Assembly (NCBI GenBank): GCA_903831085.1
Contig: CAIKWE010000044.1
Location: 89,138-153,137, forward strand
DNA: 64,000 nucleotides
Reading direction: 5' to 3'
Source of the DNA: an uncultured Verrucomicrobiota bacterium
Lineage (GTDB): Bacteria; Verrucomicrobiota; Kiritimatiellia; Kiritimatiellales; Tichowtungiaceae
In this document: piece by piece, positions 3,866 to 9,077 of the stretch
Numbering within the stretch: position 1 is the stretch's first letter
Layout of the letters: each line of letters starts with the position of its first letter
Translations under genes and position numbers: made by a program
Notes under the pieces: model-generated
Told to the model about the DNA's origin: nothing
Seen by the model: the letters and a program-made list of their open reading frames with translations, nothing else
The model's database searches: none

Positions 3866-4576
3866 TTACTCGGCCATTTCTGTTCCTGTTCCTTCTTCTT
3901 CTGCCTCTACGGCTTCTGTTTCTTCATCAAGGAGCGTGTCGGTTTGAGCTCCAAGTATGCAGTAGAGAATAACATAATTTTTTAAATCGAAATCGTCTGG
4001 CGGGAGCACCGTCGCGAACCGATCAGTTCCTACCGCAAATCCTCCACCCGGGGGGATCGCTACCATGCGGCCATCCGGACCGGCAGTGGTGGTCCAGCCT
4101 TTCGGAACGGCAATTGTACGCTTGTCTTCACCGGTCTCCGTTGTTCCCTCTGGCGGGACAGCGACGACACGTCCATCGTCTCCCTCGACGGTCGTCCAGC
4201 CTTCCGGGATGGCAACCCGGCGCTTATCTTTTCCACTCTCAGACTTACCTCCGGGCGGGATCGCAACACCGCGACCATCCGATCCGCCTTTAAAAATCCA
4301 GCCCTTTGGAATAACAATCAGCCGGTTATCTTTTCCTCTTTGGACGCTTCCTTCCGGCGGAATAGCAACACCACGGCCATCCGGGCCCGTATTCTGCCCC
4401 CAGCCTAGGGGAACCGACACCGTCCGTCCGTCCTTTCCACAAAATCCGGTTCCGCCGGGGGCAATGGCGACAAGCCGGCCATCAGGACATGTTTGCGTTT
4501 GCCAAACGGCAAAGGCATTTGCCGCTGCGGAGGCAAGAACTAACAGGAGCATTGAAGTTTTCGTATGGTTTTTCAT
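3866..4576 (-). CDS. Secreted protein of ten 17-residue GxDGRxVAIP repeats, paralogue 2
   Basis: I do not recognise this family. After a signal peptide (MKNHTKTSMLLLVLASAAANAFA) the 236-aa protein is built almost entirely of 17-residue units, G-x-D-G/K-R-x-V-A-I-P-x-G-G/W-x4. Units ending in PPGG or PPEG alternate with units ending in PxGW, giving a 34-residue super-period. I count about ten units. The last one decays to GTDRFATVLPPDDFDLKNY, followed by a short hydrophobic stretch (VILYCIL) and a strongly acidic Glu-rich tail. It overlaps its upstream paralogue by 4 nt (ATGA), so the two are co-transcribed and probably translationally coupled. An extracytoplasmic location is likely; function is unknown. 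Confidence 0.75.
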   Translation of the reverse strand: MKNHTKTSMLLLVLASAAANAFAVWQTQTCPDGRLVAIAPGGTGFCGKDGRTVSVPLGWGQNTGPDGRGVAIPPEGSVQRGKDNRLIVIPKGWIFKGGSDGRGVAIPPGGKSESGKDKRRVAIPEGWTTVEGDDGRVVAVPPEGTTETGEDKRTIAVPKGWTTTAGPDGRMVAIPPGGGFAVGTDRFATVLPPDDFDLKNYVILYCILGAQTDTLLDEETEAVEAEEEGTGTEMAE

Positions 4577-5406
4577 TGTCCTTCGCTTTCGCTGTCCATC
4601 TCTGTGTCTGTGTCTGCGTCTGTAGCTTCTTCTTCTTCCTCCAGTGCCTCGCTTTGAGGCTCAAGTATACAGTAAAGAGTAAGGTAATCCGTTAAGTCGA
4701 AATTATCCGGCGGAAGAACAGTCGCATATCGATCGGGCCCCAAAATAAATGTTCCGCCCGGGGGAATCGCCACCTTGCGGCCATCAGGGCCCATTTTTTT
4801 ACCCCTCAGGCCGACCGCGGTTGTCCAGCCCTTCGGAACGGCAACGATGCGGCCGTCGCTGCCGGTCTCCGTTGTTCCCTCCGGCGGAACGGCGACGACA
4901 CGGCCGTCTTCTCCTACGACGCTTGTCCAGCCTTTCGGGATGGCAACCAGACGCTTATCCTTCCCGCTGATCGTTGTGCCTTCAGGCGGGATCGCAACAC
5001 CGCGATAGTCCCGTCCGATTTTAAAGCTCCATCCATTTGGAATAGCAAACACCCGACCGTCCCTGCCGCGCCTGCTACGTCCATCCGGCGGAATTGCAAC
5101 AAGACGGCCATCGGCACCCCGTTCCTTTTTCCAGCCCTTGGGAACCGACACCACCCGGCCGTCCTTTCCACGATATACGGTTCCGCCGGGAGCAAGGGCG
5201 ACAGTCCGTTTATCGGGGCCGGTTTGTGTTTGCCAGACTGCATTCGACGTCACACGGCCGTCCTTTCCACGATATACGGTTCCGCTGGGAGCAAGGGTGC
5301 CAGTCCGGTTGTCAGGGCCTGTTGGTGTTTGCCCAATGGCAAAGGTGTTTATCGCCGCAGACACGAAAACGAACAAGGTAATGAGAGCTTTCGTGCGGTT
5401 TTTCAT
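4573..5406 (-). CDS. Secreted protein of twelve 17-residue GxDGRxVAIP repeats, paralogue 1
   Basis: This is the upstream partner of the preceding gene and an evident tandem duplicate: both start MKN-TK, end with VLPPD-FDL plus a hydrophobic -LYCIL- segment, and finish in an acidic tail (EEEEEATDADTDTEMDSESEGQ). After a signal peptide (ALITLFVFVSAAINTFA) about twelve 17-residue units follow, such as GEDGRVVAVPPEGTTET and GKDKRLVAIPKGWTSVV. One unit near the N terminus is deviant (VTSNAVWQTQT) and a seven-residue insertion (GLRGKKM) interrupts the phase before the eleventh unit. At 277 aa it is longer by two units than its partner, which suggests unit gain or loss. The Trp in every second unit may form a stacked face. 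No enzyme motif is visible. Confidence 0.75.
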   Translation of the reverse strand: MKNRTKALITLFVFVSAAINTFAIGQTPTGPDNRTGTLAPSGTVYRGKDGRVTSNAVWQTQTGPDKRTVALAPGGTVYRGKDGRVVSVPKGWKKERGADGRLVAIPPDGRSRRGRDGRVFAIPNGWSFKIGRDYRGVAIPPEGTTISGKDKRLVAIPKGWTSVVGEDGRVVAVPPEGTTETGSDGRIVAVPKGWTTAVGLRGKKMGPDGRKVAIPPGGTFILGPDRYATVLPPDNFDLTDYLTLYCILEPQSEALEEEEEATDADTDTEMDSESEGQ

Positions 5407-5543: not shown

Positions 5544-8500
5544 TCACGGTTTGGCGGCGTCGGAGTCCTGATAGTCGGAGAACTTCATGGACATGGTGCG
5601 CGAGATGCCGCGGTTGGGCATGGTGACGCCGTAGATCACGTCGGCCGCCGAAATCGTCTGGCGGCTGTGGGTGATGAGGATGAACTGCGACTGCGTCAGG
5701 AAGCCTTTGACCATTTTCACGAATCGGCTGACGTTGGCTTCGTCGAGCGCCGCGTCCATTTCGTCGAGCACGCAGAACGGGCTCGGTTTGACTTTGAAAA
5801 GCGCGAACAGCAGTGCCACAGCCGTCATCGTGCGCTCGCCGCCGGAGAGCAGCGAAATGGTCTGAAGTTTTTTACCTGGAGGACGGGCGATGATCTCAAT
5901 GCCCGACTCGAGCACGTCGGTTTCGTCGACCAGCACCAGTTTGGCCGCGCCGCCGCCGAAGAGCTGTTCAAAGATGATGCCGAAGTTTTCGTTTACCTTG
6001 TTGAAGGTGTCGGCGAACAGTTCGGTAGTGGTCGCGTTGATTTTTTTAATCATTTCAACGAGCTGATCTTTGGCGCTGATCAGGTCGGCTTCCTGCTGGC
6101 TGAGGAAGGCGAAGCGCTCTTCGAGTTCCGCGTGCTCTTCAATGGCGACCAGATTGACCGGGCCCATGGATTCGAGTTTAGCGCGGTGTTCGGCCGCCTG
6201 AATTTCAATTTCCTCCATCGACGGTTCGACGCCTTCTTCCCATTTCGGAGCGGGTTCACGGGCGAGCTGGTCGGGCGTGATGTGCCAGGTGGCGGTCAGA
6301 CGGTCGAGCGAGTTTTGATGACGCATGCGCTGCTCAGCCAGTTCGACTTCAAGGCCGGTCTTGCCGGTTTGCATCTCTTCCAGTTCGTTCTGGAGCGTGC
6401 GCAGGCTCTGTTCGCGTCCGGAAAGGGCGGCGGTTTGCTTTTCGCGCACCTGCCGCGCCTCGGCCAGTTTTTGTTCGGCGGCGGCGACCGCTTTGCTGAG
6501 CGGAGCGATTTTTTCTTCGGCTTCGCTGCTGGCGGTCTTGAGCTGGGCGACCCGCTGCTGATAGGAGCTGACACCGCGGGTACGCTCTTCGATCAGTTCC
6601 TGCAGTTCTTTCAGCCGCGCTTCGAGCGGCTGGCGGCGGCTCTTGAGCGATTCAATGCGCTGCTCGTGCTGTGAATACTGCACGCGGCACTCGGAGGTTT
6701 CGGAAAGTACAACGGAGCGCTGTTCTTCAAGCGCATTGAGCGCCTCAGTCTGCGTGGAAATCTGCTGACGAACCTGCGCAAGCCGGTCGCGCGCCTCGGC
6801 ACCTTCGCGGGCGACGGCCGTACGGCGGTCTTCGCCGGAGCCGTGCTGTTGCATCAGCTTGTCAAATTCATAAGTAACGGTTTCGACCCGTTCACGCGCC
6901 TGCTTCAGTTCGCGGGCAATAACCTGGCTTTCACCTTCCTGCACGGCGAGGGAACGGCGACGGTCATCAAGTTCGCGCTGAGCGGCTTCGAGCGCGTCGC
7001 CCGTTCCGCTCTGCTCGGCGCGCAGTGCCTCAAGCATCTGCCGTTTACCGGAAAGCGATTTTTCCAAGGTTTGGATATCGCCTTGTAACTGTTCGCGCAG
7101 GTGGTGACGACCTAGCGGATTGACTTCGCCTTCTTCGGGTTTCCAAAGTTCGGCCGCGCCTTCGGCGGTCAGCAGTTCGCCGCGCTGAGTGACGAAAACT
7201 GAACCGGCGGGCAGGGTGAGGGGAATCGCCTGAAGATTTTCGGCGATGAAGACATTGGCAAGCAGACGCGCGGCCAGCGGACGGACTTCGTCGGCGCAGG
7301 AAATTTTTCCGAGCAGTGAATCTTCCTTGGCTTTGGGAGCATCGCCTTCGGCGGCGAGCAGGCGCACCGCGCCCTGATTGCTTTCGGCCAGCAGGGTGAG
7401 GACATTGCGGGCGCCGGAGCGGGTGCGGACGACCAGCGCGTCCATCCACGGACGGAGCACCGCTTCGAGCGCGGTTTCAAACCCGGGCGCGGCGGTGAAC
7501 TGTTCAGCCAACGGACCGATGACGTTTTTGTCGCCGCGGTCGAGCAGGTGCTGTGCACCGGCGGGGAAGCCTTCTTTACGGGCTTCAAAAACCATTTCAA
7601 GGCGGGCGTTTTTGTCGGCCAGCTGGCGCTGGAGCTCGGAAATTTCTTTTTCCAAGGTTTGGATTTTTTCTGCGGCGGAGGAGCGGCGGTCGCGCAGTTC
7701 GGCCATCGCGGTCTGCTGCGCGGTGACGGAAAGTTTCAGCTCCTCTGCTTTGGCGGCCATTTGCGTGCCGCGCTCCTGATAGGAGGCCAACGTCCGTTCG
7801 AGATTATTTTTCTCAGCGGCGAGCTGTTCCTTGCGGATAACACCGGCGCGCTCTTTGGCGTCGATTTCGGAAAGTTCGTTTTGCAGGCGGCCGATGCGCT
7901 GGTCGAGCGTCATCGATTCGTTGCGCAAGAGGTTCAGCGCTTCGCGGCCGGAGTGCACCTGTGCTTCGGTTTCGCGCTGGCGAGTGGTGGCGGTTTCAAG
8001 TTCGGTTTTGGCTTTCAGCCGTTCCGCTTCGGCCGACTGCATCATCTGCACCACTTCGTCGAGCGAGAGGCGATGCTGGGCCAGACGGCTTTTGGCTTCT
8101 TCAGATTCTTTGGTGTTCTGCTGCGCAAGCGTTTCGAGTTCGGTGATACGCTCGGCGTTGGTGCGGATGGTCTGTTGTGCGCGTTCGAGTTCGTTTTTGA
8201 CGCGCATTGCGTTATCCATCGCCGCGCCGATGGCGCTTTCGAGCTGCTGGAGTTCGGCGCGCAGGGCGTCGGTTTCGCCGTTGGCGGTGGCGATGCGCCG
8301 GTGAGTGTAATCCACTTTGATGCGGGATGTTTCGAGATGCGCACGGATTTCCTCAATGCGGTCGCCCAACTGTTTTAGACGGTGGCGCGTGGAATAGATG
8401 TCGAGCCCTCGCAATTCTTCCTGCAGGGTTTTGTAGCGCTGGGCTTTGCCCGCCTGCCGCTGGAGAGAAATAATCTGCCGCTTCACTTCGCGGATCACGT

Positions 8501-9077
8501 CGGCGAGACGTAGCAGGTTGGCCTCGGTCTGCTCCAGTTTGCGCAGCGCCTCCAGCTTGTCGGTTTTATATTTGGTGATACCGGAAGCTTCTTCAAAAAC
8601 GGCGCGGCGGTCGTCGGGACGCGAGGAAAGCACGCGGTCGATTTTGCCCTGTTCCATCACGGAATAGGCGTCGGTGCCGATACCGGTGTCCATGAAGAGG
8701 CGCTGGATGTCTTTGCGGCGGCAGGCTTTTTTGTTGATGAAATAATCGCTTTCGCCGGAGCGGAAAACGCGGCGGGTGATGCTGACTTCGTGCAGGCCGA
8801 GATCGAGTTCCTTTTCGCAGTCCGCGAGGGTGAGGGTGACTTCCGCCATGCCGAGCGGTTTGTGGGTGTCGGTGCCGTTGAAAATGCAGTCCTCCATCGA
8901 GGAGCCGCGGATGGCGGTGGGGCGGGATTCGCCGAGCACCCAGCGGATGGCATCCGAGACGTTGCTCTTGCCGCAGCCGTTAGGCCCGACGATGGCGGTC
9001 ATGCCCGGTTCAAACTCCAGACGGGTTTTTTCGGCGAAACTTTTAAAACCGACAAGCTCTACAGATTTCAAATACAT
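5544..9077 (-). CDS. smc: Chromosome segregation ATPase SMC
   Basis: Condensin ATPase that forms antiparallel coiled-coil dimers and organises and segregates the chromosome. Head half 1 opens with MYLKSVELVGFKSFAEKT and Walker A GPNGCGKSN. Long coiled coils flank a hinge at about residues 505-670 (GPLAEQFTAAPGFETALEAV). The C-terminal head has the signature LLSGGERTMTA and Walker B FCVLDEMDAALDEANV. At 1177 aa it is full length. Two palindrome copies (7061 and 7649) fall in the coiled coils flanking the hinge, each encoding an IQTLEK peptide. The partners scpA and scpB are not in the window. The gene is transcribed away from the divergent efflux genes. Confidence 0.97.
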   Translation of the reverse strand: MYLKSVELVGFKSFAEKTRLEFEPGMTAIVGPNGCGKSNVSDAIRWVLGESRPTAIRGSSMEDCIFNGTDTHKPLGMAEVTLTLADCEKELDLGLHEVSITRRVFRSGESDYFINKKACRRKDIQRLFMDTGIGTDAYSVMEQGKIDRVLSSRPDDRRAVFEEASGITKYKTDKLEALRKLEQTEANLLRLADVIREVKRQIISLQRQAGKAQRYKTLQEELRGLDIYSTRHRLKQLGDRIEEIRAHLETSRIKVDYTHRRIATANGETDALRAELQQLESAIGAAMDNAMRVKNELERAQQTIRTNAERITELETLAQQNTKESEEAKSRLAQHRLSLDEVVQMMQSAEAERLKAKTELETATTRQRETEAQVHSGREALNLLRNESMTLDQRIGRLQNELSEIDAKERAGVIRKEQLAAEKNNLERTLASYQERGTQMAAKAEELKLSVTAQQTAMAELRDRRSSAAEKIQTLEKEISELQRQLADKNARLEMVFEARKEGFPAGAQHLLDRGDKNVIGPLAEQFTAAPGFETALEAVLRPWMDALVVRTRSGARNVLTLLAESNQGAVRLLAAEGDAPKAKEDSLLGKISCADEVRPLAARLLANVFIAENLQAIPLTLPAGSVFVTQRGELLTAEGAAELWKPEEGEVNPLGRHHLREQLQGDIQTLEKSLSGKRQMLEALRAEQSGTGDALEAAQRELDDRRRSLAVQEGESQVIARELKQARERVETVTYEFDKLMQQHGSGEDRRTAVAREGAEARDRLAQVRQQISTQTEALNALEEQRSVVLSETSECRVQYSQHEQRIESLKSRRQPLEARLKELQELIEERTRGVSSYQQRVAQLKTASSEAEEKIAPLSKAVAAAEQKLAEARQVREKQTAALSGREQSLRTLQNELEEMQTGKTGLEVELAEQRMRHQNSLDRLTATWHITPDQLAREPAPKWEEGVEPSMEEIEIQAAEHRAKLESMGPVNLVAIEEHAELEERFAFLSQQEADLISAKDQLVEMIKKINATTTELFADTFNKVNENFGIIFEQLFGGGAAKLVLVDETDVLESGIEIIARPPGKKLQTISLLSGGERTMTAVALLFALFKVKPSPFCVLDEMDAALDEANVSRFVKMVKGFLTQSQFILITHSRQTISAADVIYGVTMPNRGISRTMSMKFSDYQDSDAAKP

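Follow-up and report, generated by a model that had tools for sequence, protein, structure and literature searches.

A tandem pair of putative exported proteins built from 17-residue repeats in a Verrucomicrobiota genome

Two overlapping genes in the 64,000-nucleotide stretch of Verrucomicrobiota DNA that was analysed here (the window) encode proteins, P1 and P2, that consist almost entirely of a 17-residue repeat. The explanation that we tentatively favour is that each protein is an exported rod of stacked beta-hairpins with a regular tryptophan ridge, which may serve as a scaffold or a multivalent binding module of the envelope. As part of this explanation, P1 and P2 are possibly tandem paralogues, and the family of exported repeat proteins to which they belong would be new. 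Repeat proteins that combine a very short period with a stacked-hairpin fold are rare. If the explanation is true, the compact, regular and apparently orphan unit, which has exact spacing and occurs in both secreted and mobile-element proteins, would be a new type of scaffold, useful for tests of structure prediction and for protein design, and proteins without a name in any library would gain a family. The repeat proteins also offer a good natural case for testing whether AlphaFold2 models of repeats are correct when their confidence is high.

The gene pair and its repeat unit

The features of the locus are the following (window positions, all on the minus strand):

4573-5406, minus: open reading frame of P2, a putative exported repeat protein of 277 residues with 12 units
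3866-4576, minus: open reading frame of P1, a putative exported repeat protein of 236 residues with 10 units
5544..9077, minus: SMC ATPase gene, identified by eye, with a 137-base gap upstream of P2
5140..5337, minus: N-terminal duplication in P2 of its first two units, residues 24-56 and 57-89, from DNA comparison
3869..4000, minus: C-terminal cap and tail of P1, approximately residues 193-236, from conservation, predicted helices and the acidic tail
4082..4387, minus: residues 64-165 of P1, the six-unit core from which the second structure model was built

The original prediction, made from the sequence alone, had described a tandem pair of almost pure repeats overlapping by ATGA, with about ten and about twelve units, signal peptides and acidic tails, and all of this was borne out. 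The two reading frames share the 4-base overlap. Self-identity in P1 peaked at lag 17 (0.27) and lag 34 (0.35), far above the maximum of 0.16 over 500 shuffles and all lags, and in P2 the corresponding values were 0.28 and 0.26 against 0.14. The P1 array has ten units, each spaced by exactly 17 residues. The P2 array has twelve, the last of which is degenerate and was counted by eye; one of its spacings is 16 residues, and it carries a 7-residue insertion. Putative Sec-type signal peptides, as judged by eye, occupy approximately residues 1-23 of P1 and of P2 (MKNHTKTSMLLLVLASAAANAFA, MKNRTKALITLFVFVSAAINTFA), and 12 (P1) and 15 (P2) of the last 40 residues are D or E.

Each unit consists of a four-residue stretch A, the sequence G-x-D-G-R, a four-residue stretch B (x-V-A-I/V), and either P-x-G-G or P-x-G-W. 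It had been proposed that the true period is 34 residues with one tryptophan each. In P1, units that lie two apart are 50% identical, compared to 37% for adjacent units. When eight proteins were pooled (P1, the third paralogue P3 and six from other genomes, with P2 left out), 32 of 40 even units ended in W and 35 of 40 odd units ended in G; the even units without a terminal W were the final ones of the eight proteins. The 34-residue super-period, in which GG and GW endings alternate, is real in the Verrucomicrobiota members. The basic unit is nevertheless 17 residues, because the relatives in mobile elements described below lack strict alternation, and 34 is a refinement found in the Verrucomicrobiota members.

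The two duplicated blocks of P2, 33 residues each, are identical at 81 of 99 bases. Cysteines C30, C46 and C206 recur in most members in the genus, while P2 retains only the last of them and has a basic instead of an acidic pI. With its duplicated units, its insertion, the loss of the first two cysteines and the basic pI, P2 looks like a diverging copy. The cap region of P1 contains a conserved C-terminal motif, PPDNFDLxDYxxxYCIL, for which other proteins of the genus gave chance matches only.

In terms of surroundings, the SMC ATPase also precedes the homologue in genome G005, where it is 92% identical to the window copy; it is a positional marker that lies outside the repeat-protein system. 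A convergent RNA methyltransferase gene, identified by eye, lies downstream of the pair. No conserved gene neighbourhood that points to a function and no operon was found around the homologues, the SMC gene being common only to G005. A promoter scan at P1/P2 found none, and terminator-like matches were near chance. Long plus-strand open frames lie opposite the repeat genes (window 4065-4625 and 4775-5008) and are probably a by-product of repetitive GC-rich coding sequence, not genes. A secretin-domain protein (PF00263, L030:2328-4076) is encoded near the homologue in G008, and a secretin-like gene that is 59% identical to it (L017:4363-5001) lies near P3.

Predicted structure and comparison with known folds

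The statement that no family is known for this unit held: P1 and P2 reached no curated cut-off in Pfam or NCBIfam and matched no PHROGs family and no PDB sequence, and a literature search found no 17-residue hairpin repeat. A short stretch around PKGW scored against MbtH-like (PF03621), with an E-value down to 1.5e-7 in one member. This candidate was rejected, as P1 (23.2 bits) and P2 (22.9 bits) stay below the gathering cut-off of 27 and match at 16-17 of 53 positions; MbtH proteins are not repeats, and the resemblance is a coincidence of motif. NPCBM_assoc (Pfam) was also rejected, with short motif overlaps below the cut-off for both proteins.

AlphaFold2 models were obtained for whole P1 (pLDDT 84, pTM 0.74) and for its six-unit core (pLDDT 96.1, pTM 0.82), from shallow alignments of nine and twelve sequences, respectively, and strand pairing was read from DSSP strings. 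The whole-P1 model contains 20 four-residue strands and C-terminal helices. In the core model, every set of A, G-x-D-G-R and B forms a strand pair, and the leading B stretch, which has no A partner, was not assigned as a strand despite high confidence. In all family members, A is the first stretch and B the last. From these two observations, the strandless lone B and the order of the stretches in the members, the A-B hairpin across the G-x-D-G-R turn is likely the building block, and P-x-G-G/W would be a linker and not a hairpin turn, as the strands flanking it seem to be unpaired in the core model. AlphaFold2 over-predicts solenoids on perfect repeats (PMC11795689), so the model is taken as evidence and not as proof; the repeats here are imperfect.

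In Foldseek searches of the PDB, no E-value fell below 0.2 for whole P1 or below 0.9 for the core. The matches were weak throughout, with TM below 0.25, and the best among those listed for the core had a TM of 0.23. The suggestion that the regular turns give a solenoid-like or propeller-like stack stands in part: the models contain tandem hairpins, but the listed propellers (3hxj and 4a2m) had TM below 0.2 and an rmsd of 12-17 A, which led to their rejection, and no match to a classical beta-solenoid was found. A library of viral structures gave adenovirus fibre matches with E-values down to 0.017, but their TM was below 0.2 and they were set aside as well.

The hairpin rod that we favour would be assembled as follows. 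A and B are predicted to pair across the G-x-D-G-R turn as a beta-hairpin, and consecutive hairpins, connected by the short P-x-G-[GW] linker, would stack to form a rigid rod. Each turn of the stack would comprise two hairpins, tryptophans would thereby recur on one side every 34 residues, and the C-terminal helix would close the rod. In P1, the stack would hold ten hairpins and keep four tryptophans in register. After Sec export, the capped rod may act as a scaffold or a multivalent binding module in the periplasm or at the cell surface, binding perhaps in the manner of the choline-binding ββ-solenoids.

Among solved structures, the CPAP TCP10 sheet and the choline-binding ββ-solenoid come nearest as analogues. 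The repeat proteins were filed under neither, because the CPAP matches are marginal, the hhalign probability is 3% and there is no match to Tcp10_C or to the Pfam cell-wall-binding repeat. Choline-binding modules are ββ-solenoids made of a hairpin plus a linker (PMC4471590), and modules of the LytA type (CW_binding) resemble the predicted arrangement of P1 and P2, being tandem units of one beta-hairpin and a short linker in exported proteins, with a Gly-Trp pair at the hairpin start. Here, in contrast, Trp is present in every second unit only, strand B is the non-aromatic V-A-I, and there is a C-terminal helical motif. The choline-binding repeat is about 20 residues long, compared to 17 for the present unit. 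Pfam CW_binding gave no match for P1 or P2 at E up to 10 and was absent among the matches listed at E up to 1 for ten members. Five LytA-type choline-binding chains were among the weak Foldseek matches of whole P1, and no choline-binding domain was among those listed for the core. The predicted secondary structure agrees with a repeat of one hairpin and a short linker, and the global TM to LytA domains is at most 0.17.

A different, and in our judgement unlikely, explanation is that the array corresponds, in an exported bacterial protein, to the CPAP TCP10 (G-box) domain, a free-standing single-layer antiparallel meander in which all neighbouring strands pair and the exposed sheet would bind peptides along an edge. 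The CPAP domain is a free-standing meander of approximately 20 strands with type I turns, PDG motifs and one hairpin per repeat, and has been called unique among natural proteins for related architecture (PMC3776556). P1 resembles it in its short-period hairpins, its x-D-G turns, its 20 predicted strands and the small hydrophobic core to be expected. CPAP chains were the best PDB matches of the family profile (E 0.06-0.1) and of a mobile-element relative (E 0.006), and they ranked second and third in the Foldseek search with whole P1. All of these E-values are marginal, and CPAP was absent among the matches listed for the six-unit model; the 3% came from hhalign against the CPAP domain itself. 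Tcp10_C (PF07202) matched no family member above its gathering score, although it easily detects true members (CPAP at 2.6e-39 and a Streptomyces AAWKG protein at 6e-20). The period, counted on the printed CPAP sequence, is approximately 18 and not 17, and TCP10 is a continuous single-layer meander in a eukaryotic centriole protein, whereas the P-x-G linker here appears, from DSSP only, to leave its flanking strands unpaired.

The AAWKG-annotated control is encoded on a plasmid of Streptomyces sp. NBC_01176 (L065:1-2984). It was rejected as a relative, as its G-box-like hairpin repeats are true Tcp10_C repeats and not the 17-residue unit.

It is improbable that the arrays are largely disordered or elastic Pro/Gly-rich spacers in which AlphaFold2 predicts strands merely as an artefact of the repetition. 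Gly and Pro make up approximately a quarter of residues and charged residues another quarter, and the bias of AlphaFold2 on repeats is documented (PMC11795689). The exact spacing across species, the near-invariant D, R, A, P, G and W positions, the unit-specific conservation and the hydrophobic residues (24-25%) at fixed positions nevertheless indicate a fold, and the imperfection of the repeats also argues against an artefact. The checks returned neither a known family nor predicted disorder over the whole length.

Relatives in the genus, the class and mobile elements

A third paralogue, P3, is present in the same genome (contig C10, L017:3309-4007, minus). Of the 14 genomes of the genus, 7 contain the family; besides the present genome, homologues or fragments were found in G002, G005, G008, G009, G010 (two copies) and G011; none was found in the seven remaining genomes, including G003 (98% complete) and G006 (93%). 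When the search was extended to 388 genomes of the phylum and 346 of the class, it gave one more clear member, in Verrucomicrobia bacterium UBA6053, which belongs to another family of the class. This member has six units that are almost identical and alternate strictly between GW and GG, and its C-terminal motif is shortened. A weak match in G558 (E 8.6e-5) was not accepted, as no repeat open reading frame could be recognised around it.

In every homologue the recognised units are exactly 17 residues apart, with the sole exception of P2. For 8 or 9 of the ten P1 units, the best match in the closer homologues (P3, G011, G008 and G005) was the unit of the same rank, and the array is therefore old and stable. 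When P1 is compared with its homologues in other genomes, third codon positions differ at 0.54-0.72 of sites and the first two at 0.19-0.43, which supports coding under constraint. The G002 copy (L035:3354-3824 and following; G002:C130) does not stay in one reading frame and includes an N, and is either a broken gene or an assembly error. A relic of 42-48 residues of repeat (G008:C3:362070-362219, L016), on the strand opposite a short open reading frame, is apparently a decayed copy.

When the family alignment was used to scan viral contigs, three loci were found (L058, L059 and L060), and the scan of the genome collection for relatives used a single sequence as query. L058 is a Mu-like prophage that encodes a 115-residue protein of six to seven units, immediately after the Mu-like portal, gpF and virion-morphogenesis genes. 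L059 and L060 encode an identical protein of 136 residues on the strand opposite a series of HK97-type capsid and portal genes; phage records from Escherichia, Klebsiella and Salmonella share 85-87% identity with the capsid-portal DNA, and the gene order, in our own reading, resembles that of a capsid-forming satellite. P1 and the 136-residue protein are 45% identical over 133 residues without gaps and are likely homologous, judging by their sequences, though so short a unit could also converge. Neither mobile-element protein has a signal peptide or alternates strictly in its GW endings, and a surface role is therefore not valid for the family as a whole. An inovirus match was rejected as a relative, as it has a different Pro/Arg-rich repeat that matched by composition.

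We consider it doubtful, but possible, that the unit is a new beta-hairpin-repeat fold without a solved relative, with two hairpins per turn, common to exported Verrucomicrobiota proteins and unsecreted prophage or satellite proteins of other bacteria. If that reading holds, the unit would have moved or been reinvented across very different settings.

There is little likelihood that the unit is a cargo module of mobile elements, such as a protein with which satellites and prophages interfere or interact with the host, and that the Verrucomicrobiota lineage captured it and added a signal peptide: the signal-less relatives beside prophage head genes and inside an enterobacterial capsid-encoding element, the identity of the latter to P1 and the patchy distribution in the genus are consistent with it, but the mobile-element cases number only two that are independent, no phage or satellite marker was seen beside the chromosomal copies, the repeat proteins have no PADLOC match, and short repeats can converge.

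Next to the Mu-like prophage copy, the region L058:5457-10427 encodes an HSP90-like ATPase with weak matches to restriction-enzyme profiles, a Vsr endonuclease and an apparent DNA methylase, and it resembles a defence island.
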